In this document: positions 11,714 through 63,023 of the stretch, in pieces
Layout: the number at the start of each line of letters is the position of its first letter
Position numbering within the stretch: the first letter of the stretch is position 1
DNA from: a virus
IMG/VR virus record: IMGVR_UViG_3300043446_005562
Coordinates: 124,001-188,000 of that record
Length of the DNA stretch: 64,000 bases
Reading direction: 5' to 3' (one strand)
Translations under genes and position numbers: made by a program
Notes under the pieces: generated by a model
What the model saw: only the letters and a program-made list of their open reading frames with translations
The model's database searches: none
What the model was told of the DNA's origin: nothing

Positions 11714-12265
11714 ATGAGAATATTAGAATTTAAAGAATTCAAGCACTTACTATTGGAAGATGATCCTGCGGCACCACCGGCTGATGCTGCGGCTCCGCCG
11801 CCACCGCCTGCTGATGCAGCTGCCCCACCTCCACCGCCACCGCCGCCAATGGATCCAGGCGCGCCGCCTGCTCTACCAGCTGATCCAAATGCTGCACCTG
11901 CCGGCCCAGCCGCGCCAAGTGGCATGAAATTCATTTTTATCCAGGATGCTGAGAATAAAAAATGGCATGGTGCTCACGGAGAAGACGGAGGAACCAAAAG
12001 ATTTACTCAATACGAAGTAACCGCTGACGAATTAACAAAATGGTTAGAAGTTCATAAATTTGACAAGGAAAAGGATGTAGTTTTAGCGGCGCTTGCGGGT
12101 CGTCGACCAATGCCGCAAACTGTGTACACAACCTTCAAGAAAGAGGTTGTAGCTGGCGAATTGGGCACAGACAAGGGAATTTTGGACATTAAATTTGATT
12201 CCGAAGAAAACTTCAGCAATCCATCAACCTCTGATCTTGAAGTAGTTTTCTTAAAATCTAAATAA
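11714..12265 (+). CDS. Putative internal head protein with Pro/Ala-rich linker
   Basis: A 183-residue protein of unknown function. Residues 1-15 (MRILEFKEFKHLLLE) resemble the T4 capsid-targeting leader and end in L-L-E, a plausible prohead-protease site. Residues 18-70 are almost only Pro, Ala and Asp (several PPPP runs), a flexible linker. Residues 75-183 form a compact domain starting MKFIFIQDAENKKWHGAHGEDGG, not matched to any family I know. The late promoter at 11682 and the next gene, whose ATG overlaps this stop codon, support expression with virion genes. A packaged, processed head protein is inference. Confidence 0.85.
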   Translation: MRILEFKEFKHLLLEDDPAAPPADAAAPPPPPADAAAPPPPPPPPMDPGAPPALPADPNAAPAGPAAPSGMKFIFIQDAENKKWHGAHGEDGGTKRFTQYEVTADELTKWLEVHKFDKEKDVVLAALAGRRPMPQTVYTTFKKEVVAGELGTDKGILDIKFDSEENFSNPSTSDLEVVFLKSK

Positions 12266-12999
12266 TGAGAAAATTTAAACGTTTCATATACGAATCAAAA
12301 TTCGATTCGTTCTCTAATATTATTGCAGATGAAATTCTTAGACTTGTAAAGGAGAGCTCTGCAAACAAGAGAACGATAACTCGTGATCTTAATTACGATG
12401 ATCCAGTTTCATTCTTTTTGACTCTGCATATTTCAAGATCCACAACATTTTCACCAGCAAAATCTAAAGCCTTTAAGCAGTTACCTTGGGAAACAATTAA
12501 TTTTGAGAGACGCGGCTTTGTGATTGATGCAAATTCTTATGTGCCAAGCGGCGATGAGGAACCGGAAGTTGAAATGTCAATAATCATTAGTCCAGAGGCT
12601 GAGCCAAATTGCTATCAAGCTCTCTATTTCAAAGTGCTAGACATTATTCGGCATGAAATGGAGCATCTACTTCAAAAGGGAGCCAATCAACAAGACGGCC
12701 ATATTGTTACAACTCGTCAAAAGACTAGATCAGCGGCCGAAGAGTCGTATCGATATTTTTTACTTGCTGACGAAATTCCATCAATGGTCTCAGGCATGCA
12801 CCTAGCTGCAGTTAAAAAGAGAATTCCAATTGATGTGGAATTTGAAGATTACCTATTTCCATTCATTGAATCTGGTTTTATAACAAGAGAAGAGGCGGAT
12901 AAAGTTATTAAAGTTTGGTTAGATTTTGCAGTGCAACATTTTCCGACCGTCAAAGTTAGTAATAATTTTAAATTTTTAAAACCGGGTGAGACTCGTTGA
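12265..12999 (+). CDS. Putative zinc metalloprotease with capsid-targeting-like leader
   Basis: A 244-residue protein. The leader MRKFKRFIYE ends in I-Y-E followed by Ser, fitting a prohead-protease site. HEMEH at residues 130-134 within a hydrophobic helix (VLDIIRHEMEHLLQKG) is an HExxH zinc-binding motif; a later acidic residue in the SYRYFLLADEIPSM stretch could be the third ligand. That makes a gluzincin-like metallopeptidase likely, though the motif alone does not prove activity. The ATG overlaps the previous stop codon, so the two genes are translationally linked behind the late promoter at 11682. If packaged, it could act in the host on infection. Confidence 0.75.
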   Translation: MRKFKRFIYESKFDSFSNIIADEILRLVKESSANKRTITRDLNYDDPVSFFLTLHISRSTTFSPAKSKAFKQLPWETINFERRGFVIDANSYVPSGDEEPEVEMSIIISPEAEPNCYQALYFKVLDIIRHEMEHLLQKGANQQDGHIVTTRQKTRSAAEESYRYFLLADEIPSMVSGMHLAAVKKRIPIDVEFEDYLFPFIESGFITREEADKVIKVWLDFAVQHFPTVKVSNNFKFLKPGETR

Positions 13000-13025
13000 T
13001 ATAAGATACTAAAAATTGATTGAAA

Positions 13026-13217: not shown

Positions 13218-13243
13218 GCTCAAGATTAACAGAATTATCACTA

Positions 13244-13275
13244 GGGGCAAGGTTTTAAAAACTTTGCCCTTTTTT
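13244..13275 (+). terminator. Rho-independent terminator after the histone-like gene
   Basis: An imperfect stem pairs GGGCAAGG-type bases at 13244-13252 with 13261-13269, followed by six or more T. It separates the histone-like gene from the SSB gene. Confidence 0.8.
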
Positions 13276-14691: not shown

Positions 14692-14694
14692 AGC

Positions 14695-15807
14695 ATGAAT
14701 ATAGTAATCGACGGTAATGCCTTCTTAAACGTTGCAACAAGCATTGTTAAGAATATCCTCTCAACGGACAAGCGTATCGGCGAGAAATACTATGTTTCAG
14801 ACTTGATGTCGGACGAAGAGTTTATCTTGAAACAGGCCAGCAAAGATGCATTTAGATCGTTTTCTCTAAACTACCTTGGTAGCATCTTTGCGCCTTTCAA
14901 AGATAATATTTCATCGGTATTCTTTGTATTTGACTCAAAAAGCTGGCGTAAAAAATTTATTAAAGAACACTTTGCTGAACACGGTGAAGGTGACTTTAGT
15001 TACAAAGGCCAGCGCAAATACGACGATAAAATATATCTTTTCTTTGACTACTTTCAAAATGAGATTTTACCAACCCTATCTGACGAATACGGCATTCTAG
15101 CAAATCGTGTTCAAGGCGCAGAAGGCGATGATCTAATTACCTACATTTGTGAAAATCTTAAAGAGGATATCTGTATTTGGTCGGTCGATAAAGATTTGAC
15201 CCAATTGTTGGAAAGCCGTGATCGTAAGGTCATTTTGCTTATGCCAAAGATGATGACTAAATTCAAGAAGATTTTTACAACTGAAGATTTTGATGCAACT
15301 GGCCCAGCGCCGGAAGTTGATCTCTTTAATTTTGAAATGGACTCAATTGACAATTCAACCGTGTCAAATGTGCTAAACGATCTACTTAAAAAGGATTATC
15401 AGCATTTCAAGATTGATCCAACCCTTGATGTTTTGACCAAGGTTATTGCAGGTGATCAGTCAGATAACATTCCAAGAGCTCATCCAAAATTAACTGCAAG
15501 TAAAGTAACAAAGGTTGTTGACACAATCAAGGAAAGAATAGAGTGGACAAACATTAAATCTTTAATTGACCAGAATGACCCGGGTTTCATGAATTCTCTT
15601 AATGAGATAATATGTGAGACCTTGAAAATAGATGAACCTGGTGAAAGCCAGACGATCAGAAACAACATTAACCGTAATCGAACTATAATTAGATTAAGTA
15701 CCTCAGTTTTTCCACAAGAGATTACTGAGGCAATCTCAAAATCAATTAAATTAGAGAATCGTAGACGGTTTAACTATTTTAAATTCAAAAAAACCTATAA
15801 GAGCTAA
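14695..15807 (+). CDS. rnh: RNase H / 5'-3' exonuclease of the T4 Rnh (FEN-1) family
   Basis: A 370-residue structure-specific nuclease. Metal-binding motifs of the family are present: IDGNAFLN near the N-terminus, FVFDSKSWRK, AEGDDLITYI around residue 143, SVDKDLTQLL, and GDQSDNIP in the helix-hairpin-helix region. It should remove RNA primers and 5' flaps during lagging-strand synthesis with SSB as partner. Its stop codon overlaps the GroES ATG. Confidence 0.9.
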   Translation: MNIVIDGNAFLNVATSIVKNILSTDKRIGEKYYVSDLMSDEEFILKQASKDAFRSFSLNYLGSIFAPFKDNISSVFFVFDSKSWRKKFIKEHFAEHGEGDFSYKGQRKYDDKIYLFFDYFQNEILPTLSDEYGILANRVQGAEGDDLITYICENLKEDICIWSVDKDLTQLLESRDRKVILLMPKMMTKFKKIFTTEDFDATGPAPEVDLFNFEMDSIDNSTVSNVLNDLLKKDYQHFKIDPTLDVLTKVIAGDQSDNIPRAHPKLTASKVTKVVDTIKERIEWTNIKSLIDQNDPGFMNSLNEIICETLKIDEPGESQTIRNNINRNRTIIRLSTSVFPQEITEAISKSIKLENRRRFNYFKFKKTYKS

Positions 15808-16133
15808 TGAGCGAAAATAAAGAATTTACACCGTTATTCGAACGCGTCCTAATCAAACCAGACAGCGTTGAAACAAAAACAGAGACAGGCATCATTTTAC
15901 CAGTTGAATCACGTAAGCGCCCAAATACCGGCGTCGTTATTTCAATCGGACACCTGGTAGCCGAAAATTCAAAATGTCCAGTAAAAGTAGGGGATAGGGT
16001 TCTCTATCAACGCTATTCCGGACTAGACGTAAAAGTAAATGGTGATTTGCATCACTTAGTTATGGCCAATGATCTTGTTGGCATTATAAATAATACTGCA
16101 AACAGCACAATTGAAATTGCGGACTATGCTTAA
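15807..16133 (+). CDS. groES: GroES / gp31-like co-chaperonin
   Basis: A 108-residue GroES fold: PLFERVLIKPDS, a mobile-loop region (TETGIILPVESRKRPNTGVV) containing the IIL-type GroEL-binding tripeptide, and KVGDRVLYQRYSGLDVKVNG. It is slightly longer than GroES (97) and similar to T4 gp31 (111), and keeps more direct GroES similarity than gp31 does. It should cap the phage or host GroEL ring. Its ATG overlaps the RNase H stop and its 3' end overlaps the next gene by eight bases. Confidence 0.93.
   Translation: MSENKEFTPLFERVLIKPDSVETKTETGIILPVESRKRPNTGVVISIGHLVAENSKCPVKVGDRVLYQRYSGLDVKVNGDLHHLVMANDLVGIINNTANSTIEIADYA
16085..16092 (+). promoter_or_regulatory. T4-type late promoter box TATAAATA
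   Basis: An exact match to the T4 late -10 consensus inside the end of groES, 33 bases before the ATG of the HAD nucleotidase gene. It would uncouple that gene from the replication operon and express it late. Confidence 0.6.
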
Positions 16134-16704
16134 AAACTTCTCACAATTTATTACTGAAAAACGCGGCGGCACCAAACAGATCTTTTGTGATCTAGACGGT
16201 GTGCTAGTTGATTTCAATCGGGGTTTTAAAAACCTTGAAGCAAACGAGGATAAGTTGACCCCGGAAGAATACAACAAGAAGCACGGAAAACACTCAATAT
16301 GGAAAATAATCGATCCTGAGGGAGAAAAATTCTGGATCAAACTTAAATGGACAAAGGACGGTCGCGAACTATGGGATTACTTAAGTCGCTATAATCCAAT
16401 TATTCTGTCTTCACCAAGCCGTAGTAAGCACTCAATTCCAGGTAAAATGGAATGGGTAAAGCGTAACTTGGGCATAAGTCAAGCAAAGCCAACAACTTCT
16501 GCATCAGATTGGGATCCAGCTAGCCGAATTATCCTAAGTTCAGATAAATTCAAGTTTGCCAGGTCAAAGGACGATATCTTGATTGATGACACTCGTGCTA
16601 AATTAGACAAATGGACTGCTGCTGGCGGAACTGGCGTGTTTCATAATGATGCAACCGATACAATTCGGGTTCTTGAAGAAATATTCACAAGTAAAAAAGA
16701 CTAG
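16126..16704 (+). CDS. HAD-family 5'(3')-nucleotidase-like phosphatase with capsid-targeting-like leader
   Basis: A 192-residue protein. Residues 1-11 (MLKNFSQFITE) form a T4-type capsid-targeting leader ending in I-T-E. Residues 18-192 are a HAD phosphatase: CDLDGVLVDFNRGF (nucleophile Asp22, Asp24), ILSSPSRSKHS (motif II Ser) and DILIDDTRAKLDKW (motif IV acids), the pattern of 5'(3')-deoxyribonucleotidases. It would dephosphorylate nucleotides. The ATG at 16126 is preferred to an upstream TTG because the leader begins there; ATGCTTAA overlaps the groES stop. The exact late promoter at 16085 fits packaging, which is inference. Confidence 0.85.
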   Translation: MLKNFSQFITEKRGGTKQIFCDLDGVLVDFNRGFKNLEANEDKLTPEEYNKKHGKHSIWKIIDPEGEKFWIKLKWTKDGRELWDYLSRYNPIILSSPSRSKHSIPGKMEWVKRNLGISQAKPTTSASDWDPASRIILSSDKFKFARSKDDILIDDTRAKLDKWTAAGGTGVFHNDATDTIRVLEEIFTSKKD

Positions 16705-32330: not shown

Positions 32331-32975
32331 TTAAACTTCCTCGTTTTGCTCTTCGTCTTCTAATGGCTTTTTACTTTCGTCAGCCATTTTTTCAGAGTCT
32401 TCTTCCTCTTCTTCGGTCTTGCACATCTTTTCGATTGCTGCGCATAATAGATCGCAAACTTCTTCTTTTTCAAGTTCCATCTTTTCGCAAATATTATCAA
32501 TCATTTCTTGAAGATCATCTCCGAATTCTTCAGTTAATTGTTCAAGTAATTCCTCGTCTACTTCGTATCCGAGTTCAACATTTTCGTCATTTTCTAGAGG
32601 TTCTTCAGCTTCATTAAATTCATAGCCGTAGTTTTCATTTACGAATTCTTCGTATCTAGCAATTTTGCCTTCTTCGACTGCTTCTACTGTTGCAATGGTT
32701 GGTTTAGCGTACATTTGTGTATAAGGTTTTTTCTTTGCTGTTCTGTAAACGATATCGCTTGAAAAACCTTTCCAAGCAGAATCATAATTTGGATTGAAAC
32801 GCCCGCCTTCAGCATTGGGGTCGCGCTCAACAATTCTTTGATATCCATCAAGAGATTTTCTCTTTGATTTATCAAAATCTTCTTTTTCAGAAGGACCACC
32901 AAACGCAGGCTTCTTTAAATTAGTCCATCTGTCTAGTGAAGGATTATCTCTGCGTTTTATGTTAAACATGTCCAT
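32331..32975 (-). CDS. Acidic protein of unknown function, possible prohead core component
   Basis: A 214-residue protein. The first half is basic (SLDRWTNLKKPAFGGPSEKEDFDKSKRK), the second half is extremely acidic. Around residue 108, KIARYEEFVNE looks like an internal copy of the capsid-targeting leader motif ending in F-V-N-E. Residues 140-185 are helical (DEELLEQLTEEFGDDLQEMI). It follows the tail tube gene in a structural operon. Charge profile recalls T4 prohead core proteins such as gp67, but no homology is visible. A second Met at codon 3 is an alternative start. Confidence 0.8.
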   Translation of the reverse strand: MDMFNIKRRDNPSLDRWTNLKKPAFGGPSEKEDFDKSKRKSLDGYQRIVERDPNAEGGRFNPNYDSAWKGFSSDIVYRTAKKKPYTQMYAKPTIATVEAVEEGKIARYEEFVNENYGYEFNEAEEPLENDENVELGYEVDEELLEQLTEEFGDDLQEMIDNICEKMELEKEEVCDLLCAAIEKMCKTEEEEEDSEKMADESKKPLEDEEQNEEV

Positions 32976-34538: not shown

Positions 34539-35042
34539 TTATCCGATTTCTTTATCACCACGAAATTCTTTTCCGCGGTTTGATTTTTTCTTGTCTGGGT
34601 CAACTGGTTTGTAATTAGCCCAAATTTCATTGTAAATACGGCAAGATGCGCCCATGAAATTAACAATGCCGACGTATTTCTTACGATCGTCACCTTTCAT
34701 TTTTGAAATTCTTTTGCCAATTGTGCGAGCATCATCCAAATCCAATTCTTCATCATCCGACTTTCCAACTAAATCCTTTAGTGAATTTGTTTCAGTCACG
34801 TAAGATTCAAAGGTTGGATGCACATGAGGGCCATGTGGACCCATTGGATCCAAGTCAGTATCTTCTGATTCAAGATCAGCAGATCCGCCCATTCTTTCTA
34901 TTTGAGCAAGGCCTTCTTCCTGAGAGTTTACTGGAATTAAAGTATTTCGACCAACGACATAGTAGCCGTCTTCTCTTTCTTCAATTCTAAGTGGACCCGA
35001 CAGATCGAATTCCATGCCATCACTAAACTTAAGTTTTGACAT
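34539..35042 (-). CDS. Protein of unknown function in the head/tail-tube operon
   Basis: A 167-residue protein. It begins with a compact beta segment (LKFSDGMEFDLSGPLRIEEREDGYYVVG), then an acidic His/Pro-rich stretch (MGPHGPHVHP) and a helical, lysine-rich end. TFESYVTE around residue 80 looks like an internal capsid-targeting-type motif. No family is recognised. It ends three bases before the next gene. Confidence 0.78.
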   Translation of the reverse strand: MSKLKFSDGMEFDLSGPLRIEEREDGYYVVGRNTLIPVNSQEEGLAQIERMGGSADLESEDTDLDPMGPHGPHVHPTFESYVTETNSLKDLVGKSDDEELDLDDARTIGKRISKMKGDDRKKYVGIVNFMGASCRIYNEIWANYKPVDPDKKKSNRGKEFRGDKEIG

Positions 35043-35053: not shown

Positions 35054-35413
35054 TTATTTAGGCATCTTTGCCATAGAAGGATCAACCTTCTTGTTAAGGG
35101 CTTTTCCTTTGATAACTAATTTAGAAATCTTTGGATCAACTTCTTTTTTAGAAGCAGTTCCGCGACCCTTTGGCAAATCAGCAATACCGGTTTTTACCAT
35201 TTTCTTAGGCTCAGAACCACGACCCTTTGGCAAATCTGCCATTTCAGGTTTAACAGTTTTGCTGATAGACTTGCCCTTTCCAGCAGGAAGGTCAGAAGTT
35301 TCATCATCAACTTGTTTGGTGATCTTTTTACCTTTAGCAGGAGCACCCTTAGAAAGATCTTGATTCATTTTCTTTTCGAAAAGATACTCTTCGTAGCTTA
35401 AAACTGATTTCAT
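35054..35413 (-). CDS. Repetitive basic protein with capsid-targeting-like leader
   Basis: A 119-residue protein. Residues 1-13 (MKSVLSYEEYLFE) are a T4-type capsid-targeting leader ending in L-F-E. The rest consists of about five tandem units of 18-22 residues, each built as (S/A)DLP(K/A)G(R/K)G then a Lys/Val-rich run. The body is strongly basic and probably disordered until bound, the composition expected of a packaged DNA-binding internal protein. It sits next to the major capsid gene with its own late promoter. Function is inferred from leader, charge and position. Confidence 0.8.
   Translation of the reverse strand: MKSVLSYEEYLFEKKMNQDLSKGAPAKGKKITKQVDDETSDLPAGKGKSISKTVKPEMADLPKGRGSEPKKMVKTGIADLPKGRGTASKKEVDPKISKLVIKGKALNKKVDPSMAKMPK
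35072..35362 (-). repeat. Five tandem ~19-codon repeats
   Basis: Codons 18-114 of the basic 119-residue protein. Units start at residues 18, 40, 59, 78 and 97; two central ones share ADLPKGRG exactly. The repeat is at protein level; the DNA copies have diverged. Confidence 0.75.
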
Positions 35414-37267: not shown

Positions 37268-39250
37268 TTAATTTTGTGCTCTTCTTTTGAGAGCGTCTAA
37301 ATAGTTACTTGAGTAACCTCTTAGACTTTCGTGTACTTGTGTTAACGAAACATAGCCCTCTTTACCTTGGCTTTCGTTAATTGTTTGATTATTTATATTG
37401 TTTGCTTGCGCAATTCTTTCGCTGATTGCTCTAAGATCACGTGAATCCCAGAAAGCTTTTGCTTGGTAAGGAGTGTTGATCACTTGAGTAGAGGCCTGTG
37501 CCGCAATCCAGTTACGCTCATTATCTGTCATACCTTCAAACACTGATTTGTATTTTTCTGGCATGAAACGAACGTAGGCTGGGGTGTTTTCTACCTGTTT
37601 GTTCAATACTGCTTCCATGATATTGATAACTTCACCTTCAGTAAAGAAGATAGCGCCTTTCATCGTTTCAACGATTGCAGATTTAGTTTCAGTATCTAAA
37701 GCATAGAATTTTTGTTTATTAGATTCGCTAAGAAGTTTTAGGAATGGATACTTGTTCTCAAGAACAGCATTTGCTGAATTTGATTTAATGTGAGCAAGAA
37801 TTCCGTCAACTGCATTAGTTAATTCATCAACACCAGAGGCATCATTAACTTCGTAGCTTGCATTTTCATTAAGTTTCTTAACGTCAGCTAATAGTCTACG
37901 AGCTTTGATGTTGGTATTTGGAGTGATCTTTTCGTTCATTGTTTCAGCAATGTACTCAGAATAGGCAATACCTTTTTGTAAGTTTTCGCCTAAATACTCA
38001 GAATATTTAATAGCTGCATCAAGATTTTCAGCTAAGTAATTTGCAAATTTGATACCCTTTTCAGCATTTTCTGCAACGTATTCAGCGTATTGAATACCCT
38101 TGTCAACGTTTTGAGCTAGATAGTTTGAATAGGCAATATTCTTTTCAACGTTTTCAGCAATGTATTCGCCGTAATTGATGGATTGATTTACCTTTTCGCC
38201 TAAGTAGTCAGAGTATTGAATATTCTTCTCAATTTTTTCTGCTAAGTAATCGCCGTAATCGATCACGTTGTTTACCTTTTCAGCAACGTGTTCAGTATAA
38301 CCAATACCCTTATTCAACATGGTTGAAAGGTAATTAGAATACTCCACCATTTTTTCCATTTCACCAGCTAGGTAATTTACATACTCAACTAGTTTTCCAG
38401 TTTCTGGTGATTCGTTACTATTTTCGTTAAGAGCACGTAGACCAGCGTTATTTTTCGAAAGGTTTTCTTGAAGAGCGTCGAATTTCTTCTTTACCAATTG
38501 CGAATACTGGTTCATTTCTTCTCTTGATACAAAGTCATTAGCCATTTGCTTATTGTTATTTTGTTGTTTAGGAATTTCAGAATTATTTATTCTATAGATC
38601 TTCACAGAATCTTCAAAAGAGAAGCTTTCTGATATATCTGTTAATTTATTTGTGATTGAAGCAGTCTTTAAAGTATCCAAAGACTCAAACAGAACTGAGA
38701 AATTGTCCTTAAGGCTTTCAGATACCTGAGTTAGGGATGCTTGCGAGAAACCAGGTTCAGCAACAATATCGTAGGTAAAGATTTTTTGAATCTTAACAAC
38801 ACCGCTCTCATTTACATTACCTGCAGCTCTTGATGAGGTTGAGATAGTACAGCCTGACTCAACTAGGGTCTTTGCAATACGACCGCATGGAGTATCAAGT
38901 ACTCTTAATTTGATACGAACAGTATTTGAAGGCTCGTCATAGTTAAGAGATTCAACCACGTGAGATACGTTCTTTAAGGAAACGTCAAAGCTTTGTGGAT
39001 GATCAAGCTCTCCAAATAACTGACCCTTTTTGATTTTTTCGTTTAGATAGGAAAGATGAGGCAAGTACTCTTGCTTCTCATAGATACGATTGTTTTCGTT
39101 CTTTTGTCCAAAGACTGCGCAAATACCTTCAAGGATAATTGAACCGTCATTTGATTTTGAAACATTTAATGCTTCATTAACTCGTTCAATGATGAATAAT
39201 TGACTTTCATCAAAGCCGGTCTTTAGTAAGTTTGTTTTAGCGCTAGTCAA
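37268..39250 (-). CDS. 21: Prohead protease (gp21-like) fused to a repeat scaffold (gp22-like)
   Basis: A 660-residue protein. Residues 30-170 are a gp21-type serine protease: EGICAVFGQKNENNRIY, GELDHP with the catalytic His, and ISTSSRAAG with the catalytic Ser, then DIVAEPGF. A Gln/Asn linker (around 225-235) leads to a second part starting MANDFVSREEM at residue 236. Residues 289-442 are eleven exact 14-residue repeats (consensus xYSxYLAExxxKxI), a long helical array, followed by a helical tail. T4 encodes protease and scaffold separately. An internal late promoter and ATG (38545) could yield free scaffold. Confidence 0.9.
   Translation of the reverse strand: MTSAKTNLLKTGFDESQLFIIERVNEALNVSKSNDGSIILEGICAVFGQKNENNRIYEKQEYLPHLSYLNEKIKKGQLFGELDHPQSFDVSLKNVSHVVESLNYDEPSNTVRIKLRVLDTPCGRIAKTLVESGCTISTSSRAAGNVNESGVVKIQKIFTYDIVAEPGFSQASLTQVSESLKDNFSVLFESLDTLKTASITNKLTDISESFSFEDSVKIYRINNSEIPKQQNNNKQMANDFVSREEMNQYSQLVKKKFDALQENLSKNNAGLRALNENSNESPETGKLVEYVNYLAGEMEKMVEYSNYLSTMLNKGIGYTEHVAEKVNNVIDYGDYLAEKIEKNIQYSDYLGEKVNQSINYGEYIAENVEKNIAYSNYLAQNVDKGIQYAEYVAENAEKGIKFANYLAENLDAAIKYSEYLGENLQKGIAYSEYIAETMNEKITPNTNIKARRLLADVKKLNENASYEVNDASGVDELTNAVDGILAHIKSNSANAVLENKYPFLKLLSESNKQKFYALDTETKSAIVETMKGAIFFTEGEVINIMEAVLNKQVENTPAYVRFMPEKYKSVFEGMTDNERNWIAAQASTQVINTPYQAKAFWDSRDLRAISERIAQANNINNQTINESQGKEGYVSLTQVHESLRGYSSNYLDALKRRAQN
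37390..37397 (-). promoter_or_regulatory. T4-type late promoter for the major capsid gene
   Basis: TATAAATA, an exact consensus match on the minus strand, inside the end of the scaffold coding region and about 140 bases upstream of the capsid ATG at 37250. It would give the capsid gene extra late transcription. Confidence 0.55.
37925..38386 (-). repeat. Eleven tandem 42-base (14-codon) repeats
   Basis: Codons 289-442 of the protease-scaffold fusion; 154 codons divide into eleven units without any gap. Tyr at unit positions 2 and 5, Leu/Ile/Val at 6 and Ile at 14 recur. Fourteen residues equal two heptads, consistent with a coiled-coil scaffold rod. Confidence 0.92.
38543..38545 (-). other. 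22: Candidate internal start codon for a free scaffold protein
   Basis: ATG of codon 236 in the fusion gene, followed by GCTAATGAC (Met-Ala-Asn-Asp). The leader on the minus strand, AATAACAATAAGCAA before this ATG, closely resembles the leader of the tail sheath gene (AATAACAATAGCACGCG). A late promoter box lies 38 bases further upstream. The product would be 425 residues carrying only linker, repeats and tail. Confidence 0.55.
38584..38591 (-). promoter_or_regulatory. Internal late promoter box within the fusion gene
   Basis: AATAAATA on the minus strand, 38 bases before the internal ATG at 38545 and immediately after the protease-coding part. Its place favours separate late expression of the scaffold. 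Confidence 0.55.
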
Positions 39251-52203: not shown

Positions 52204-52659
52204 CTAGGAATAGGGATCAAGGTCCCGATTGGGAATATTCTTCCAGCGTTTTTCAGCATTACCGGTACCTCCTCTTGCAAGCTGAACCTCCTCAGCCGTG
52301 TCCTTTATGAATCTAAGAGCGCCCTCGTAATCGCCATCCGTTAACATATCATCAACCATGCCAGCGGCTGCCTCTGAAAGCTTGACCCTATAGACAACTG
52401 GATGGCGCTGATCATTAAATCTGCACCGCATTATCATCATGTTCAGGTTTCCACCAAACGCCTTTTTATCTGGGTCGTCCTTGCCGCTAACGTCGCTTAG
52501 ACCAAGACCGTGAAGTCTGTCCAGGTTCTGTGATCTAGCTAGGGAAGGTTCCTTGATAAAGGACTCTATGCCGTTACAGTCGGCGATACCGTAATACCAA
52601 TGAGATTCGCCAGTACCACGTGACTCGTTGAATGATTTGAATGAATTTGCGTACTTCAT
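52204..52659 (-). CDS. Putative internal head protein with capsid-targeting-like leader
   Basis: A 151-residue protein. The leader MKYANSFKSFNE fits the T4 type; its end is F-N-E, slightly off the I/L-x-E rule. The rest begins GESHWYYGIADCNGIESFIKE and contains conserved-looking turns (FGGNLNMMIMRCRFNDQRHPVVYRV) but no family I recognise. It has its own late promoter at 52682. Packaging into the head is inferred from the leader. Confidence 0.78.
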   Translation of the reverse strand: MKYANSFKSFNESRGTGESHWYYGIADCNGIESFIKEPSLARSQNLDRLHGLGLSDVSGKDDPDKKAFGGNLNMMIMRCRFNDQRHPVVYRVKLSEAAAGMVDDMLTDGDYEGALRFIKDTAEEVQLARGGTGNAEKRWKNIPNRDLDPYS

Positions 52660-52745: not shown

Positions 52746-53297
52746 ATGAAAAAAATATTCATTCTACTAGTTTCATTATCATCTATCTTCACTACTAGCT
52801 TTGCTCAAAGTATTGAAAATGCAATTATCAAACAAATCAATCAACTAAGACTTCAAAAAGGCGGCCCAGATAGCGGATTATCGCCATTTGTTAGAAATTC
52901 TGCGCTGGATTCCGCGGCAATGTACCACGCACGATGGGTCGTTGCAAGTGGTCTTAGGAGTCATACTGAAACTCGAGAGGCTGGGTCAATAAAGCCTCTG
53001 CCTGGCTTTTGGGATAGATCTGCAAAATATGGTGCAACTTCAATTGCGGAAAATTTAATTCAATACTGTCAGTACGTCAAATCGGGCGAGACAGTTGATA
53101 CATTCAAGACTGCAACCGTTGCGTTTACTTCTTGGAAAAACTCGCCGGGTCACTTGGCTAATATGTTAATAACAATGCCCAAGCAGGTTCAGGCTAGAAT
53201 AGGTCTTGCGATTGTACCTTATTCTGATGGAAATTACTTTTGTATCGTAATGGTGGTTGGCGCAAATATTGATACAAATGGCCAATTAATTAAGTAG
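52746..53297 (+). CDS. Exported CAP (SCP/PR-1) domain protein
   Basis: A 183-residue protein starting at the Met of MKKIFILLVSLSS; an ATG four codons upstream (52734) is an alternative. A signal peptide (KK, hydrophobic core, then TTSFAQ) is followed by a CAP domain: IENAIIKQINQLRLQKG, ALDSAAMYHARWVV, GLRSHTET, TSIAENLIQY, SWKNSPGHLANMLI, RIGLAIVPY, FCIVMVVGAN. The usual CAP signature histidine, glutamate and SPGH are all visible. It should be secreted or periplasmic; phage function is unknown. It is a lone + gene among minus genes and overlaps the next gene tail to tail by eight bases. Confidence 0.9.
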   Translation: MKKIFILLVSLSSIFTTSFAQSIENAIIKQINQLRLQKGGPDSGLSPFVRNSALDSAAMYHARWVVASGLRSHTETREAGSIKPLPGFWDRSAKYGATSIAENLIQYCQYVKSGETVDTFKTATVAFTSWKNSPGHLANMLITMPKQVQARIGLAIVPYSDGNYFCIVMVVGANIDTNGQLIK

Positions 53298-54435
53298 TCT
53301 TTCCAGGAGAACACACCGACGAGATTGAGAAACTTGTTCCAGCAAGAGGTGAGAATACTCGAATTGTTAAATTGTCAAGATCAAAGCCTTTAGTTATCGC
53401 GAATGTAAAATTTACATTTTTTGCGCCCTGTTGATTTGGACCCGGCTGAACCTCAAATCTATTATTTACATATCCTCCATTTTTAGCCAGAGCAGTTTCG
53501 ACAGTCAATTTACCCCCGACTGCTGCAATCTCCTTGTTTATTGCATCCTTTAGGCCTGGACATTTTGCCGGATCATTCAATTCCTTTTCAAAATCTCTAT
53601 ATCGCGGGTCCGACGCATCGATTGTTGAATTTTTTCCAGTGGTCGCATCGTATACTGTTGTTCGAGTGGTTGATCCCAACCATGGGCTTAGGAATTCGGT
53701 TTCCTTATATTTAAAATACACCATATCCGGAACAGTCATTGGATCAAATGTTAAAGTTACAAGGTTTCCAACTGGGACGACCACAATCTGATCTTGATTG
53801 TATCCAACGTAATTGTTTGACTGATTCGCCTGGCCACCCTGTCGAGAGGCTGGCTTCATGTTGCACGTAATTTTTTGATTGTCCGGAATCGCATCGCCTG
53901 TTTGAGTTAGTGACATCGACACATATTGATATTTCTTGCGTTCTTCATCTGACGCATTTGCCTCACCTCCTGAATTTGGCCGAGAGACCTGTTTAATTTC
54001 AATCTTCTTTTTTAATTCTTCAGGTGAACAGCCTAGCCTTTCACAAAAATAAGAAACAGTAATTGACTCAAGCGTTTTTAATCTGGCTTGGCAAAGAGCC
54101 GCATTTCCATTGCCTGTGATTTGATAGCCGGCTGCCTGCAATTTAGCCTTAAGGTCTTGACCGAGTCCAAGTTTAGAAGTTGACGCAACCAGTGTAAGAG
54201 TGGTCTTTTGATTCAAGTATTTAGGGACGCGAATTAAACCAATAGGTTTATTCAAATCTGTTTTTAGTTGAGTCAGAGATGCTGCTGGAATGTCAGCTTG
54301 TTCATATTTACCTGATTCAAAATTAAAATTAAATTTTACTTCAGCACTCAAATCTCCAGGATTTGCTGCAGAAGAGTCTTCATTCAAAACATCCTTTAAA
54401 AATCCTAAAAAGTTTTTTATTATCGGGTCATTCAT
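53290..54435 (-). CDS. Protein of unknown function, possibly with capsid-targeting-like leader
   Basis: A 381-residue protein. The first 19 residues (MNDPIIKNFLGFLKDVLNE) resemble the leader family with a longer spacer and end in L-N-E before Asp. The body has one domain with an OmpA-like flavour (LKAKLQAAGYQITGNGNAALCQARLKTLESITVSYFCERLG), a Ser/Asn-rich linker and a beta-rich C-terminal domain. It has several cysteines. No family is recognised. Confidence 0.75.
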   Translation of the reverse strand: MNDPIIKNFLGFLKDVLNEDSSAANPGDLSAEVKFNFNFESGKYEQADIPAASLTQLKTDLNKPIGLIRVPKYLNQKTTLTLVASTSKLGLGQDLKAKLQAAGYQITGNGNAALCQARLKTLESITVSYFCERLGCSPEELKKKIEIKQVSRPNSGGEANASDEERKKYQYVSMSLTQTGDAIPDNQKITCNMKPASRQGGQANQSNNYVGYNQDQIVVVPVGNLVTLTFDPMTVPDMVYFKYKETEFLSPWLGSTTRTTVYDATTGKNSTIDASDPRYRDFEKELNDPAKCPGLKDAINKEIAAVGGKLTVETALAKNGGYVNNRFEVQPGPNQQGAKNVNFTFAITKGFDLDNLTIRVFSPLAGTSFSISSVCSPGKTT

Positions 54436-55031: not shown

Positions 55032-55637
55032 TTAAGCCGTTGCAAGATTCGATAAACCGGCCTTAGTCAATTGCTCCTTCCAAATTATTGGAAAATTCTT
55101 GTTCCACTCAGCAACTCGACCTTTTCTATCCAGCTTGTCGCTGTCATTTAAAACGGAATACATGTTCTTAAGAGCCGTAACTTCAAGATTGGTATCGCCG
55201 GCTGCTTGCATAGCGTTCATTTGTTCAAGCGAGTAGGCTTTTTTCCAACCCAGTTTTGCGTGAAGTTCTAATGCATCTTCCACCGAATCTAAAATCATTC
55301 TGCCGAACATTTTTTTACCTGGATTATTTGGATCATTGCTCACAACCGGCTGAGCCGCTTGACTAGGCATAATCTTTTTAAGAGCCGCTTGCATTGAGGC
55401 CTGATCTTTACTAGCGCCGGTGTCGGTAACGGATCCCTCAGTTGCGTCCCAATAGGCATACATGCTGTGTGCTTTATCATCAGCGAATGGATACTTATAG
55501 GCAACTCCATTTGATTTTAGAGTGTAACCCTCAGGTTTTGCGCCCGGACCAGAAGTGCCGGCTGTTGCTGCTGGATTTGTTGGTGCGGCCGCTGCTTCCT
55601 CGTTCAACCACTGTGTATAACCTTTAATAATTTTCAT
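55032..55637 (-). CDS. Putative internal head protein with Ala/Pro linker
   Basis: A 201-residue protein. The leader MKIIKGYTQWLNE ends in L-N-E. An Ala/Pro/Thr/Gly-rich linker (residues 14-36) follows, a design shared with the protein at 11714. The body begins KPEGYTLKSNGVAYKYPFADDKAHSMYAYWD and ends in helices (AEWNKNFPIIWKEQLTKAG). No family is recognised. It has its own late promoter. Confidence 0.8.
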   Translation of the reverse strand: MKIIKGYTQWLNEEAAAAPTNPAATAGTSGPGAKPEGYTLKSNGVAYKYPFADDKAHSMYAYWDATEGSVTDTGASKDQASMQAALKKIMPSQAAQPVVSNDPNNPGKKMFGRMILDSVEDALELHAKLGWKKAYSLEQMNAMQAAGDTNLEVTALKNMYSVLNDSDKLDRKGRVAEWNKNFPIIWKEQLTKAGLSNLATA

Positions 55638-56282: not shown

Positions 56283-56836
56283 TACCAAAATCCTGGGTAA
56301 GTTTTACCTCCCCATAGATGCGCGTAGCGGTTAATGCGACAGGCCCAATAACCCGCTTTGGTCTTGTCCTTTTTTTGACTGCACTGGTGTCTTGCAGCAA
56401 AAGAGGCTCTGGCCTTGGGATTGCTCACCTTTGCGGTCAACCCGCCGTGAACATCGCCAAATGAAATCTTTTTTACATTACCTGTTTTGGGATTCTTAAC
56501 GTAGACATGATACTTCTTTTCTCCACCGCGCTGTGGATATCCAAGCCTAACCTCCTTACCATGATACTTGGCCTCATTGAGCTCAAGCTCTTCGATTGGA
56601 AAGTCTAGCGGCACGATTTGACCCTCATAAAGATCAGTTTTACCCAAATCGGTCTCAATAAAAAGAATCTTATCGACACCGGTGAAATTCATTTCGCCAG
56701 CATCGAATCGGGTACGTGCCTCAACCAGCAGTTGAATATGAGCTTTGCTGCCGGGTCTAAAAATTGACTCGGTCACAGACATTCCTCGGTCGAGGTGATA
56801 CTGTAGATTCTCAGATATTAGGGTTGGATTTACCAT
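56282..56836 (-). CDS. Phage protein with DUF5872-type C-terminal domain
   Basis: A 184-residue protein. The C-terminal half (KKYHVYVKNPKTGNVKKISFGDVHGGLT, then ARASFAARHQCSQKKDKTKAGYWACRINRY) is the pattern of a conserved domain found in many T4-like and marine phages, with two Cys and several basic residues; I recall it as DUF5872. Function unknown. The N-terminal half (GMSVTESIFRPGSKAHIQLLVEAR) is less typical. It overlaps the next upstream gene by seven bases. Confidence 0.75.
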   Translation of the reverse strand: MVNPTLISENLQYHLDRGMSVTESIFRPGSKAHIQLLVEARTRFDAGEMNFTGVDKILFIETDLGKTDLYEGQIVPLDFPIEELELNEAKYHGKEVRLGYPQRGGEKKYHVYVKNPKTGNVKKISFGDVHGGLTAKVSNPKARASFAARHQCSQKKDKTKAGYWACRINRYAHLWGGKTYPGFW

Positions 56837-57279
56837 GCTTCATTCATTGGAACAATTTGACCGCCACACTCGCAAGTCATGTCTTCGTTGCACTCATAGG
56901 CTTCATAGGTCATATTACACTCATTACAAGTGTACGCGCCAGCCGATTCGTCAAGCTCATCACCAAATTTTTTGATTGGACCCTCGGCTCCAGCCTCAGG
57001 TGCTTCGGTCATTTCATTTATCAAGAAGTTTGCAACCTCCTCAATATCGTCCTTTGATGTTGCAATATGATCAGCTGCCCAGTCGTGACCATTGTGCAAT
57101 AGTTCATCAACTTTAGCTGGATCCATTTTTAACATGGCATCAACGTGACGTTTAATCGTTTCAAGATTACCAAAGAACATGTAGTGATCAGCTTCATGAT
57201 TGCCAGCTTGATCAACTTCAGGATTTGACATTTCTGGATCCTGTTCAAAGGCTTCAAATGTTTTTACTAGGTTTTTCAT
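56830..57279 (-). CDS. Zinc-ribbon protein with capsid-targeting-like leader
   Basis: A 149-residue protein. The start MKNLVKTFEAFEQD fits the leader family but lacks a clear I/L-x-E. The C-terminus holds a zinc-ribbon: YTCNECNMTYEAY then DMTCECGG (C-x2-C and C-x-C). The middle (HDWAADHIATSKDDIEEVANFLINEM) is helical and acidic. Function unknown; the zinc ribbon may bind nucleic acid or protein. Confidence 0.75.
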   Translation of the reverse strand: MKNLVKTFEAFEQDPEMSNPEVDQAGNHEADHYMFFGNLETIKRHVDAMLKMDPAKVDELLHNGHDWAADHIATSKDDIEEVANFLINEMTEAPEAGAEGPIKKFGDELDESAGAYTCNECNMTYEAYECNEDMTCECGGQIVPMNEAW

Positions 57280-57287: not shown

Positions 57288-58799
57288 TTAGTTATTTTGG
57301 TTTATAAAATCTGAGAATTCCAAGATGTGACTTGTCTTCTTCTTTTTTTTCTTTTTGGTTGGATTAAAATTATCACCGGAACCCAGCGTAGTTGCGGTTG
57401 GCGGCGTGATTGGGCCCATAGCACCAATTGAGCCGGGCACTTGAATCGCCATGCCGGGTGCTGAGCCAGCCTCTTCAAAAGCCGCTTCCTTTTTAGTGTC
57501 CAACGCCGCTGTGCCGGGAATGAACATGCGACTTAGCGCATCCGCTTTCATCTCGCCCTCACGACCCTTTATCGCTTTACCGACAAGCTTGGCCGTGTTA
57601 TTTAGAGTTTTTGCGTATATGTTATGAATGTGTGAGCCAAAGTTAGCAAAGGCTTCGCCGGCTGGTGTCAGAGGCTTGCTTCCAGTTCCCAATAGAAAAT
57701 CCATTAATGATTGTAGACCTCTACGAAACTTCATTACTGCGCTCTCATCCGCGATCTGTTTGCCAGTCACAGGCAAAGAAACCTTTTCATAGAGTTTAAG
57801 TCGCTTGTTGAAATCAAAATGAATTCCCTTGGCCCTGTCCAGTTGCAGATCTTTGTTTTTCAACTTTGCAATCAGCGCAATCTCAGCCTTGTCCAGCATC
57901 TTTGATAATTCAGAAATGGTGTCCTCCTTGGATTGGCCCTGTAGAGCATTTATTTTTGCTCTGATTTGAGAAATTTCGGTTGTTAATTCCTTTTCGCTCT
58001 TGAAATCTGTGTACTTTAATTTGATAATTCTTTCCAGGACCTTGAGCTCTTCTCTGGAATAGGGTCTTTCGCCCATAAATCTTTCAAAGCGGTCTTCGCC
58101 GATCTGCTCCTTAACCTTGTCCTCGGTGTAGTCTTTTGCTCTGGCCAATTGATCCTTATCTTCATCGTTAAAGTCCTCAGTAATCTCATCTATTACGATC
58201 CATGAATCAATAATGTCTTCCGCAATCTGTTCCTTTTCTTGAGGGTCTTGACTCTTTTCGATTGAACTAAGATTTCTTTGATTTTGTTGAGCAGCCACCG
58301 TGATGAGAGTCACATAAGACTCCTGTAAGGTTCGCTGAACATCCTCAATCTTTTTTGAAATGTCTTCCGCCACTTTTTTAATCTGGGCGCTCTCCTTGGA
58401 TTTTAATTGACCGTATAGCTGATCCAATACGCTAATTCTCTTTGCGATTTGGCTCTGTTGAGCTGTCAAGCTCTTAAGTCTCTTCTTGTTTGCTTTACTG
58501 CCGCTGGCCAAAGCCTCTTTTATCTGATCGGTTATCTTTTGCAGGCGCTTCTTTGAATAGTCAAGATAGAACTCAACCGCCTGTTTGGTCTTGACAATAT
58601 CCGACTCTCTCCAAGAATCAACCTTGATTGATTTATCAATCATGCTGTCCAGGAATTTTTCCATTTCAGAGATTGCATTGAGCTGGTCTTGGGTCAATTG
58701 ATTAGAGTCCACATTGGGTTCTCCCGAGCTCGTCTGGATAAGATTTGCCTCGGTCAATAAATCTTCAATGTGCTTAAATCGTTTTACCTTTAGGAACAT
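57288..58799 (-). CDS. Coiled-coil virion protein with leader-like N-terminus and C-terminus
   Basis: A 503-residue protein. It opens KVKRFKHIEDLLTE (ending L-T-E before Ala) and closes, after a run of seven or more Lys, with ILEFSDFINQNN, which is leader-like at the C-terminal end. The body is long coiled coil with many Lys, Glu and Gln (about 30-330), then a Gly/Pro/Ala-rich tail. Size and helical content fit a prohead core or internal head protein. Not matched to a known family. Confidence 0.78.
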   Translation of the reverse strand: MFLKVKRFKHIEDLLTEANLIQTSSGEPNVDSNQLTQDQLNAISEMEKFLDSMIDKSIKVDSWRESDIVKTKQAVEFYLDYSKKRLQKITDQIKEALASGSKANKKRLKSLTAQQSQIAKRISVLDQLYGQLKSKESAQIKKVAEDISKKIEDVQRTLQESYVTLITVAAQQNQRNLSSIEKSQDPQEKEQIAEDIIDSWIVIDEITEDFNDEDKDQLARAKDYTEDKVKEQIGEDRFERFMGERPYSREELKVLERIIKLKYTDFKSEKELTTEISQIRAKINALQGQSKEDTISELSKMLDKAEIALIAKLKNKDLQLDRAKGIHFDFNKRLKLYEKVSLPVTGKQIADESAVMKFRRGLQSLMDFLLGTGSKPLTPAGEAFANFGSHIHNIYAKTLNNTAKLVGKAIKGREGEMKADALSRMFIPGTAALDTKKEAAFEEAGSAPGMAIQVPGSIGAMGPITPPTATTLGSGDNFNPTKKKKKKKTSHILEFSDFINQNN

Positions 58800-59475: not shown

Positions 59476-62430
59476 TTACTTTATAACTATGCTAAAACGA
59501 TTGTGATTTTGCGGATCTGGCCAGTCCGGCCCGCCTGTACAGCGTAAATGCTTCTGGAATTCCTCAAAGCCCGAATCAACTTTAAAATAGGCAATTTTTG
59601 AGGTTTCTTTATCAACCACCATAAGTATCTTGAAGTCATCAACCTTTGCATAATACAGAAGAGAATGCCAGGCTAAAAAATCAATAAAATTTTGATACTC
59701 AATTTTTGTAGGAGTGTCGTTTTGAAAAAAATCCGAGATTCCTTTGCGCAAATTAGCTTTATGGCCGCAACCTTTTTCCCAAATTCCACCTGAAAAAATT
59801 TCTGAAAACCATTCAAAAAAGTCGTCCGGTTTTAGAGCAGACTCCTCAGAAATAATCTTGAAAAGAGGTTTCCATGTGTTAAGAAATCCTTTCTGTCTAA
59901 TATTGAACGCATTTAAACCATCTTTTGCAAAGCATTGATCCAAGAAGTTACTGACTTTCTGATTATTATTGACAAGACCGGCGAGTTCCGCTAATTTTGT
60001 TTCTATTATAAACTTACCGTTTGTAAAACCACCCTGCTTCGACGATACCAATCTTCCGCCGTTTCCTTTAACCTCAATGTTAATTTCACCAGCCGCAATA
60101 TCTCCTTCTCCAGATTTCTTCACACCATCTTGAAATAATATTGAAATCAATTCGCCAATACCTTTACCCTGAGTAGTTCCGGATTTAGTTGTTATCGAAA
60201 AATTTAGGATCTCACTAAATATCGTTGGATCAATTTCAGGAAAATCGGATTCATCTAATTTTCCTGAATTCTTCAGTCCTGAAATGTCATAACCACTAGA
60301 TTTTTCAATGTAGTCATACAGCTTATCTAGAGTCGGTTCGTGTCCGTGTGAAACCTCTGCGCATATTTGACTAAAACGATCAGCGTCAGTTTTTAGATAT
60401 CCACGATTTACAATTTCAGTGGATATGTTGTTCAACACCCCTGATGATTTATGAGTTGCAATAGATCTTTTGATTTGAGCTATTATTTTTTTGTAATCTT
60501 CTGGCGAGGATTGCCTTAGCGCAGCTAATTCTTGTTCAAACTCATCATCCATATTTAGAGGTGGAACCTCATTTGCGAATGTTGCCTCAACTGATTCATT
60601 TAATTTTGGCGAGGCCAACTCATTGATGTCTCGATTCATGTTAAAAAATTCGGAATGAATCGCGCCGGGAGCAGCCGCTTTGAAATTCTGATAGTCTTCG
60701 GATCTTAGAGAATTCATAATGGAATCCTTGACCCCAGCGATCGGTAATTCAATTAGAGCAACGTCATTTCTAAAATTAAGATTTCTTGAGCGTCTTTTTG
60801 CCAATTCCATCTGTAGTGCCAGATCCTTTATTCTACTCTTTGTACCTGAGATGATTACTGGTTCAAAATCCGGCTTTATTGCTCTTAATAGATTTTCAAC
60901 CTCGCCGTCCGGTACCATTCGATGACCGGTAACAAAACTTGGATGGTGGGTTGCTACTTTGTCCAAATAGCCCTTAACCGTTTCTTTTTTAAAGGGTTTC
61001 GTCTTGTTTACGGAGCCGTCGTGAATGCACACAAATAGGCATGGGAAACCATTCATATCAAACAGTTTCTGTGCGGATTTAAGATGACCTGGGTGAAATG
61101 GTTGAAAATCTGAAATGATTAGATTAACTCTTTTAGACTTTCTTTCCTCTTCTGGCACCTCCGCGAAAGTTTCAAAATAGCCGGGTTCAAGATCCTCTCC
61201 AACAAATTCACCAAATGTTGGAAAGTAATTTTCGTAAACCGCATCGCCTAATAACACATTACTAATCTTTTCAATTTGAGAAACAAGATTCGCGCGCATT
61301 GGCTTGGTAAAAAATGTTGAGCTCACCCTAATTGTCTTTTTTCTAAACATGTTCAAAAAGACACGATAGATCTCCTTGTAATTTGGGTTTGACTCAATTA
61401 GGTTTGTGACCTTTTTATTATGAATTAGGTTGTAATTAACGTTAAAGTCTTCTCTTTGTAAAAATTCTGGAATTTGAATGTCCAAATCAATGTACTTCTC
61501 TCCAAACTCAGCAATGAAATCAAGATAGATATGATTCACCAATGAGATATAGCGTTGCTCATAAGAATCGCCGCTTAGTTTAATATCACGTAATTCGCTT
61601 AATGAATATCTCTCAATGAAATTCATCAAGTCAATCACAATGATCCAAATGTAATCGTCCGATTTCTTTTGAACACGGTCCTGTGCCTTTTGTTTTGCGT
61701 TTGCCTGAAATACTGGATCAACCAACTTTGCCAAAAAGACAGAGTCTTCGGATTTATTTGCAGGATCGTAGAATCTAAATACTAGACCCTCAATGTCTTT
61801 GTCCAGCGTATCGCGTAAAAAAGTTGTTCCAAGCTCAGGATTTAGAACTGATACAATATATTTTGTGAATGATGTTGTCTTAAATTTATCAACCAATTCC
61901 TCAAACGGAGTATAGATGAACTCTTGAATTTTCTCCTTTTGATCTGGCGACAATTTGCCCTCAAATACAATCGGAGGTCTCTCAATCATGAGCAGGTCGG
62001 CCCATTTGTCAAGGGTCGCCTTGTCCTGAATGGTCTCTTTCATTTCGCCCTTATCATCAAGCACATGAATGTAGCTTAGGATAAGTCCATTTTTGGGCAA
62101 TCGGTCGTAGGCAATGGTCTGGGCTTTTGGGCTGGTAAACCATTCCATGCCAAAATGATAGTTTTCTGGAATCTGGGCTATGGTATCAGCCCCAAGGTTC
62201 TCAAAATGTCTAATAGCCGGTTCAAAGTAACGACTGAGTACTCGATCGATGTACGTAATTTCAGCGTTCCTTTTAAAGAAGCGGAACTTACTCGTATTAG
62301 GATCTTTTTGGGCGCCAAAGAAGGCCCCATCCATTTTTTCATTTACAATTACAGTTTTGTTTAAAAGGCCATCTAAGAAGTCCTTTCCGCGTTTGTCATA
62401 AACGTCTCTTAAGTGTGATAGTCCTGGCAT
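59476..62430 (-). CDS. Ligase + nucleotidylyltransferase + PD-(D/E)xK nuclease fusion
   Basis: A 984-residue protein in three parts. Residues 20-270: an ATP-dependent ligase-type nucleotidyltransferase with KMDG (Lys32, Asp34, Gly35), HFGMEWF near 95, EGLVFRF near 213 and FLAKLVDP near 231 (motif V Lys). Residues 430-620: an HxGH nucleotidylyltransferase, RVNLIISDFQPFHPGHLKSA (His446, His449), with later SGTKSR, resembling NMN adenylyltransferases. Residues 700-984: ITTKSGTTQGKGIGELISIL, and INIEVKGNGGRLV near 785, a PD-(D/E)xK-like nuclease site, with the second acid from EGDI. Order and combination are unusual. A role in nucleic-acid repair or a toxin-like system is possible; neither is shown. 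Confidence 0.75.
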   Translation of the reverse strand: MPGLSHLRDVYDKRGKDFLDGLLNKTVIVNEKMDGAFFGAQKDPNTSKFRFFKRNAEITYIDRVLSRYFEPAIRHFENLGADTIAQIPENYHFGMEWFTSPKAQTIAYDRLPKNGLILSYIHVLDDKGEMKETIQDKATLDKWADLLMIERPPIVFEGKLSPDQKEKIQEFIYTPFEELVDKFKTTSFTKYIVSVLNPELGTTFLRDTLDKDIEGLVFRFYDPANKSEDSVFLAKLVDPVFQANAKQKAQDRVQKKSDDYIWIIVIDLMNFIERYSLSELRDIKLSGDSYEQRYISLVNHIYLDFIAEFGEKYIDLDIQIPEFLQREDFNVNYNLIHNKKVTNLIESNPNYKEIYRVFLNMFRKKTIRVSSTFFTKPMRANLVSQIEKISNVLLGDAVYENYFPTFGEFVGEDLEPGYFETFAEVPEEERKSKRVNLIISDFQPFHPGHLKSAQKLFDMNGFPCLFVCIHDGSVNKTKPFKKETVKGYLDKVATHHPSFVTGHRMVPDGEVENLLRAIKPDFEPVIISGTKSRIKDLALQMELAKRRSRNLNFRNDVALIELPIAGVKDSIMNSLRSEDYQNFKAAAPGAIHSEFFNMNRDINELASPKLNESVEATFANEVPPLNMDDEFEQELAALRQSSPEDYKKIIAQIKRSIATHKSSGVLNNISTEIVNRGYLKTDADRFSQICAEVSHGHEPTLDKLYDYIEKSSGYDISGLKNSGKLDESDFPEIDPTIFSEILNFSITTKSGTTQGKGIGELISILFQDGVKKSGEGDIAAGEINIEVKGNGGRLVSSKQGGFTNGKFIIETKLAELAGLVNNNQKVSNFLDQCFAKDGLNAFNIRQKGFLNTWKPLFKIISEESALKPDDFFEWFSEIFSGGIWEKGCGHKANLRKGISDFFQNDTPTKIEYQNFIDFLAWHSLLYYAKVDDFKILMVVDKETSKIAYFKVDSGFEEFQKHLRCTGGPDWPDPQNHNRFSIVIK

Positions 62431-62435
62431 AGTAT

Positions 62436-63023
62436 TTAGTCTAGTGAACCGAAATCGCCTCTGCTCATAGCTGCGGCAAATTCTCTATCGGCTTTTGAAT
62501 CTTTAGCGATATTAAGCCCGATAACGCGCTCGGCAATTTCCGGATTTTGTTTTAAAAATTTAATTAGGGCTCCTGTATCAATGTCCTGGTATTCTCCAGA
62601 TCCACCAAATTCAACAAGCTCTTTTTCTAACCTAAACATTGGCGATCTATTAGTCAGCTCAAGGTGCCAAATGCTAAACGTTATGATTTGACCGTTGCGC
62701 TCCATGTGATCGGCCATATCTGTCAAATCTTTGACTACGTCAGCTAACGCGTATTCCTTGTCCATTGCCCTGTCCCATTCGTTCCATTGCTTTCCATCAA
62801 CCTTTATGTTGATTGGAGTAGATGCGTTGGAGAATCCGGGCACCAATACAGTTTCCAGATTTGGGCACAGTTCAAATATTTCAGCCAGATCCACTGCAAA
62901 ATCCTCAATAGTTTCGCCCCTTAGACCGTGATCAGGTAGAAGACCCTTTGCTTTTAACCAGGCTCTGCGCTGTCTGTGAGCTGATTCGGCTATAAATTCG
63001 GTGAATCCTTTAAGATTTTTCAT
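62436..63023 (-). CDS. Putative internal head protein with capsid-targeting-like leader
   Basis: A 195-residue protein from the ATG at 63023. The leader MKNLKGFTEFIAE, then Ser, is the closest of all to T4 internal proteins (T4 MKTYQEFIAE then Ala, as I recall it). The rest is helical and acidic with a basic start (AHRQRRAWLKAKGLL). A conserved-looking run is HMERNGQIITFSIWHLELTNRSPMFRLEKELVEF. No family is recognised. Confidence 0.8.
   Translation of the reverse strand: MKNLKGFTEFIAESAHRQRRAWLKAKGLLPDHGLRGETIEDFAVDLAEIFELCPNLETVLVPGFSNASTPINIKVDGKQWNEWDRAMDKEYALADVVKDLTDMADHMERNGQIITFSIWHLELTNRSPMFRLEKELVEFGGSGEYQDIDTGALIKFLKQNPEIAERVIGLNIAKDSKADREFAAAMSRGDFGSLD

Follow-up and report, generated by a model that had tools for sequence, protein, structure and literature searches.

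What might bring otherwise unrelated proteins into the head of a T4-like phage? The capsid-targeting sequence (CTS) of the T4 internal proteins IPII and IPIII and, by inference, of IPI and Alt is a short N-terminal peptide with two aromatic residues at the targeting positions and an [IL]xE cut. In the IPIII CTS, targeting depends mainly on residues 4 and 7 and processing on residues 8 and 10, and Asp at position 10 blocks cutting while leaving targeting intact (PMC9026906). The N-terminus of IPII and IPIII reads MKTYQEFIAE, in which the published mutants assign Y4 and F7 to targeting and I8 and E10 to cutting. The T4 internal proteins are basic and co-purify with gp22, and leaders of this type have already been proposed to allow the packing of varied proteins by T4-like phages (PMC9026906). 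A 2023 review describes as mysterious what puts particular proteins into the T4 scaffold core, whose structure it calls unresolved (PMC9958956). In the inner-body system of phiKZ and SPN3US, N-terminal propeptides of packaged head proteins are likewise removed by the prohead protease, and several of these exceed 100 residues (PMC5694885), unlike the leaders described below, most of which are predicted to be 10-19 residues long.

The window analysed here (64,000 nucleotides, positions 124001-188000 of a 252,618-bp record) comes from a T4-like jumbo phage whose gp23 has its nearest kin among T4-like jumbo phages (LR756500, Lak, Tenacibaculum pT24 and the PAU kind), and IMG/VR holds 80 loci related to it. 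We compared the entire record with eight relatives (seven IMG/VR contigs and LR756500, as full contigs or big parts) and with T4, PAU, pT24, P-SSM2 and a portion of Lak-A2. As ORF calling followed a simple longest-ORF rule, ORF-based counts are approximate. A first-pass annotation of the window had proposed that nine or ten genes share a T4-type capsid-targeting leader, mostly ending according to the [IL]xE rule of the gp21 protease. All ten genes exist with the starts by which they are named here; five have a strict leader, two a spaced and one a shortened form, whereas 57279 carries the FxxF half only and the N-terminus of 58799 is weak. These leaders and the other leader-like segments of the window are as follows.

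11714-11758, plus strand: leader MRILEFKEFKHLLLE, spaced form (FKEFKHLLLE), of a 183-aa Pro/Ala-rich protein (11714-12265)
12265-12294, plus strand: leader MRKFKRFIYE, strict core FKRFIYE, of an HExxH protein (12265-12999)
16126-16158, plus strand: leader MLKNFSQFITE, strict core FSQFITE, of a HAD-like protein (16126-16704)
32634-32666, minus strand: internal leader-like KIARYEEFVNE, residues 104-114 of a head-cluster protein (32331-32975)
34791-34811, minus strand: FESYVTE, residues 78-84, internal in the protein of 34539-35042 and N-terminal in relatives
35375-35413, minus strand: leader MKSVLSYEEYLFE, strict core YEEYLFE, of a basic repeat protein (35054-35413) adjoining gp23
52624-52659, minus strand: leader MKYANSFKSFNE, shortened form (FKSFNES), of the protein of 52204-52659
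54379-54435, minus strand: leader MNDPIIKNFLGFLKDVLNE, spaced form (FLGFLKDVLNE), of the protein of 53290-54435
55599-55637, minus strand: leader MKIIKGYTQWLNE, strict core YTQWLNE, of the protein of 55032-55637
57244-57279, minus strand: FxxF half only, MKNLVKTFEAFE (FEAFEQ), without canonical LxE, of the protein of 56830-57279
57291-57329, minus strand: leader-like C-terminus HILEFSDFINQNN of the protein of 57288-58799
58749-58799, minus strand: N-terminus MFLKVKRFKHIEDLLTE of the same protein, with a conserved LxE and without a convincing FxxF (FKHI)
62985-63023, minus strand: leader MKNLKGFTEFIAE, strict core FTEFIAE, of the protein of 62436-63023

The leader of the 55637 gene has the highest profile score of the genome, and that of 63023 is, of all leaders, the nearest to the T4 peptide. 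The leaders of 11714 and 52659 are both retained in G005, G002 and G009, and the 54435 protein has no orthologue in the relatives compared. The G007 orthologue of 57279 has a similar segment, FVKTFESYVNE, at residue 101. Leader-like copies also lie inside the head-cluster protein of 32331-32975, where KIARYEEFVNE is the genome's top internal profile match (20.6; 30.2 for the G002 counterpart) and is conserved in 8 phages, and at the C-terminus of 57288-58799, which in three relatives ends in LEFSDFLKQ, LGFADFIKE and LGFADFIKE. In a 354-aa protein at genome 201920-202984, leader-like cores lie at two places close to the C-terminus, NTFDQFVNE and QNYESYLNE.

The likeness of these N-termini was assessed genome-wide against within-protein shuffles, with [FYW]xx[FYW][ILV]xE near the protein start as the strict core. 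Fifteen ORFs of this phage carry the core against 0.45 expected (maximum 2 in 200 shuffles), and 10 of the 15 sit outside the window. Observed and expected counts are 23 and 0.57 in G005, 21 and 0.70 in G002, 11 and 0.62 in the 160 kb of LR756500, and 3 and 0.76 in T4; the strict N-terminal core occurs in no protein of PAU or pT24, nor in the equivalent internal window (residues 60-80) of any of 222 proteins of this phage. The three T4 matches include IPII and IPIII as named in the T4 record, in agreement with the first-pass statement that T4 internal proteins carry a similar leader. A profile built from six other phages and applied to 282 ORFs of this phage recovered full leaders in 18 (0.9 expected) and the FxxF half in 29 (3.9 expected). 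To avoid bias from knowing the listed genes, N-terminal four-position class patterns were enumerated without any motif; the top patterns in this phage were k.@..@..e (z 15.9) and @..@h.e (z 13.9) against a null maximum of 7.1, with similar patterns in G002 and LR756500 and none outstanding in T4, pT24 or P-SSM2. The leaders align approximately as M..[ILV]K[ST]F[ST]Q[FW][IL]NE/[SN] (the slash marks the predicted cut), and positions outside the selection criterion are conserved too. Shuffles, profile and enumeration all bear out the family, of which nine or ten members was too low an estimate: there are about 25 per genome. Spaced-form matches at window 8228, window 23517 and genome 213290 were taken as chance because they resemble conserved replication/repair enzymes (by eye, the genes look like those for ribonucleotide reductase small subunit, RecA/UvsX and a helicase).

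Most leader genes had been said to have late promoters, and this holds: ATAAATAA lies 24-53 nt upstream of 7 of the 10 listed genes, at -31 of 11714 and -40 of 16126 among them. Across four phages it precedes 32 of 66 leader genes (48%) but 153 of 968 others (16%), an approximately three-fold enrichment (odds ratio 5.0, p 3e-9). A single mobile cassette of leader and promoter was considered and rejected, since the DNA upstream of duplicated leaders is unrelated. The leaders themselves are copied between unrelated genes without their surroundings: over 42 nt the identity is 1.00 for 88900/89348 of G013, 0.98 and 0.93 for pairs in LR756500, and 0.83 for 11796/12606 of this phage, while the flanks are 0.27-0.47 identical and the cargoes have no or barely detectable similarity. 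When orthologues were searched by cargo alone, the query being stripped of its leader, FxxF was retained in 51 of the 53 found, and FxxF with a slightly relaxed cleavage site in 46. Before residue 70, seven orthologues of the HExxH protein, at 25-82% identity to it, have no invariant residues other than F7 and E10.

The cargoes are diverse. Pfam finds VanY and CHAP domains on leader proteins of this phage and a peptidoglycan-binding domain on another, and phage lysozyme and nucleotidyltransferase on those of relatives, whereas the proteins with NUDIX and ATP-grasp have no more than an FxxF-type start; most leader proteins match no Pfam family, and homologue searches with two cargoes gave few relatives, mostly close. 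Three cargoes had been named earlier as putative effectors. The HAD phosphatase (16126) has a DLDGV motif and a Pfam match below threshold. The HExxH of the putative metalloprotease (12265) is invariant in seven orthologues, but the protein has no significant family match, and its good model (pLDDT 86.5) has no match in the PDB at E<=0.001 and in BFVD matches nothing but uncharacterised phage proteins. The basic repeat protein (35054-35413) is borne out: it has a net charge of +16 and is the clear exception among mature cargoes that are mostly neutral or acidic. Strongly acidic mature leader proteins (net charges -46, -32, -24 and -28) include those at genome 18329-19387, 190802-191587 and 226110-227396, and are candidates for core proteins or DNA mimics. 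In addition, GroEL-type (Cpn60, E 1.7e-65) and GroES-type (Cpn10, E 1e-21) chaperonins are encoded at window 647-2227 and 15807-16133, the latter overlapping the HAD-like leader gene, and a 984-aa protein (window 59476-62430) has an N-terminal RNA ligase domain (Pfam E 2.5e-7) and, downstream of it, a nucleotidyltransferase-like HPGH motif seen by eye.

We judge, at a probability of about 0.85, that this common N-terminus serves as a T4-type capsid-targeting signal for many cargoes. The FxxF pair, usually following [ILV]K, would recruit the tagged protein into the prohead core; late in infection tagged proteins would join the scaffold core, after which the shell would form; a gp21-type protease would cut after the Glu of [ILV]xE; and the mature proteins would remain in the head, presumably to be ejected with the DNA and perhaps to act in the host. 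As in T4, a gp21-type protease is encoded and the tagged proteins are otherwise unrelated. Unlike T4, which has 3-4 cargoes, this phage has about 25; its leaders read F[ST]Q[FW][IL]NE/S after [ILV]K and also have spaced, internal and C-terminal forms; many of its cargoes are acidic or enzyme-like, whereas IPI, IPII and IPIII are small basic mature proteins; and its protease is fused to a scaffold that repeats the leader core. Acidic cargoes count against a capsid destination, as do lysis-type domains (VanY, CHAP), which are not obviously expected in a head, and tagged proteins without a canonical [ILV]xE.

Leader-like N-termini occur in other phages too. Cyanophage P-SSM2 has the same core near the start of a few proteins (MKSFKQFLEEA, MKSFSQFLTET, MKTYQQFNES), but with about five such proteins it does not rise above the null in the motif-free enumeration, and its gp22 is separate and without the scaffold repeats described below. 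In PAU (NC_019521), 20 ORFs match a leader pattern of its own (0.93 expected), nearly all MK[TS][IL]xxL[YF]E; this family, MKT[IL]xxLYE[AS], likewise places one leader, ending in LYE, on 20 otherwise different proteins, but it has no FxxF pair, and the PAU head-cluster proteins have no tandem repeats of it. Many PAU leader genes lie around head genes, and gp142 and gp154 are annotated as internal capsid proteins and gp152 as scaffolding; taken as written, these annotations lend outside support to leaders of this kind marking what the head contains. N-terminal sequencing showed PAU gp23 to be shortened from 585 to 520 residues (PMC5646251). That shortening agrees with cleavage at ALME64/N or no more than one residue from it. 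In the parts of Prevotella phage Lak-A2 compared (code 15), MNKxIKxLLESLFDD occurs in about five proteins (pattern h.esh, 15 against 1.8 expected), possibly a third leader family.

The protease and the major capsid protein gp23 are encoded in the window as follows.

35538-37250, minus strand: major capsid protein gp23, with candidate protease site SLNE53/A
37268-39250, minus strand: gp21-type prohead protease in the N-terminal ~230 residues, with a presumed scaffold as fusion partner
37931-38386, minus strand: tandem 14-residue repeats of the scaffold part (residues ~289-440), consensus over eight phages SINYSEYLAENLNK

The gp21 homologue reported earlier is present: its protease part matches Pfam PF03420 Peptidase_S77 (E 1.1e-8, above cut-off), the head maturation protease family phrog_207 (E 3.9e-38) and T4 gp21 itself. 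Overlooked in that account, whose leader and cleavage rule are well supported, were the scaffold repeats with a matching core. Each has the core YxxY[LIV]xE (for example YSEYLAEN), its elements in the same order as in the leaders. The repeats are found in all 66 scaffolds examined, with 4-9 strict copies per scaffold, and many of their aromatics are invariant across 31 aligned scaffolds. Against the 12-position leader profile, single repeats score at most 6.4 here and <=9.7 in relatives and do not exceed the best chance windows of the proteome, so the likeness is carried by the core together with the 14-residue phase, and the leader positions on either side of the core differ from the repeats. 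For the repeat consensus the score is 5.6, which 3.2e-4 of background windows reach, and by our own arithmetic, with 14 phases allowed for, the chance that one repeat unit would resemble a leader so well is about 0.0045. The mean phase score of the repeats is +2 against a best of -13 among 447 control proteins, a contrast that is overstated because the repeats are not independent. The scaffold model (mean pLDDT 55.5) draws the repeats as long helices, mostly at a pLDDT below 50, and we base no structural claim on it. Comparison gave no support for homology between the scaffold part and gp22 (hhalign probability 0.5%; no match to Pfam T4_CASP), tandem repeats of this kind were not seen in T4 gp22, and the repeat profile run on the gp22 family did not single out its conserved block in most sequences. 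In the T4-family gp22 alignment that block reads approximately [YF]xx[YH][LVA]AxxW[LM]xEN in most members and resembles the leader core, but none of the comparisons made linked the two.

Are the aromatics simply part of an extended prohead-protease site, there to aid cutting, with leaders and scaffold repeats alike because both are substrates? The common core of leaders and repeats does include [LIV]xE, and the known T4 gp23 cut (FGSFLTE) also has aromatics. The leader, however, has two separable parts. The [LIV]xE near residue 53 of gp23 is conserved in 20 relatives without FxxF, so the prohead protease appears not to need the aromatics. In spaced leaders a spacer sets FxxF and LxE apart, orthologues interconvert between spaced and unspaced forms, and the profile scan finds several proteins that keep FxxF and lack LxE. 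Strict and spaced leaders have aromatics at the positions equivalent to Y4 and F7 and, by definition, an [IL]xE end, which 57279 lacks; the cleavage rule proposed at first pass is well supported, and the T4 mutants link residues 4 and 7 to targeting. A protease site and nothing more is therefore an unlikely account of the leader.

Still less probable is a sorting tag for a place other than the head, such as the tail, a membrane or a compartment of the infected cell. Cargoes with peptidoglycan-acting domains could suit it, but the peptide matches the T4 CTS and follows the prohead protease rule, the head cluster includes genes with leaders or leader-like segments (35054, 34539, 32331), and the matching repeats belong to the protease-scaffold protein itself. 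Chance similarity, or descent of all these proteins from one old, diverged family, is scarcely credible: the neighbours 11796 and 12606 do have a common leader, as tandem duplicates would, but the shuffles, profile and enumeration oppose it, the 115 strict-leader proteins of nine phages fall into 64 cargo clusters, the recognised domains differ, and leader-sharing neighbours have little or no similarity beyond the leader.

Returning to capsid targeting, the scaffold repeats suggest, without proving, how the leaders might work. Given a scaffold with tandem copies of the leader core, leaders may act as single scaffold repeats; the repeat match, the co-purification of T4 internal proteins with gp22 and the unexplained core placement led us to propose that a leader could bind the core by imitating one repeat unit. 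Cargo would then stand in for one scaffold unit, using the very aromatic contacts by which the scaffold is held together, a single protease rule would free the cargo and dismantle the scaffold, and each T4-like jumbo lineage would have its own code and 20-30 packaged proteins. We put this forward tentatively, as a proposal with the odds somewhat against it: the flanks mismatch, T4 gp22 and PAU are without such repeats, and gp22 homology is unsupported. The protease-scaffold repeats with the leader core are new here; the scale of the leader family, the scaffold match and the second code of PAU were not found in the literature searched, most subscription journals lying outside its coverage.

In a lineage whose scaffold repeats its targeting motif, the question of core placement could be put to the test with one scaffold fragment and a peptide. 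The leader also offers a route, from sequence only, to listing what uncultured jumbo phages package, mostly proteins for which no function is known. Lists compiled from leaders could be mined for anti-defence and take-over factors, for which T4 IPI, a protein that is injected and inhibits a restriction enzyme, sets a precedent (PMC9026906).
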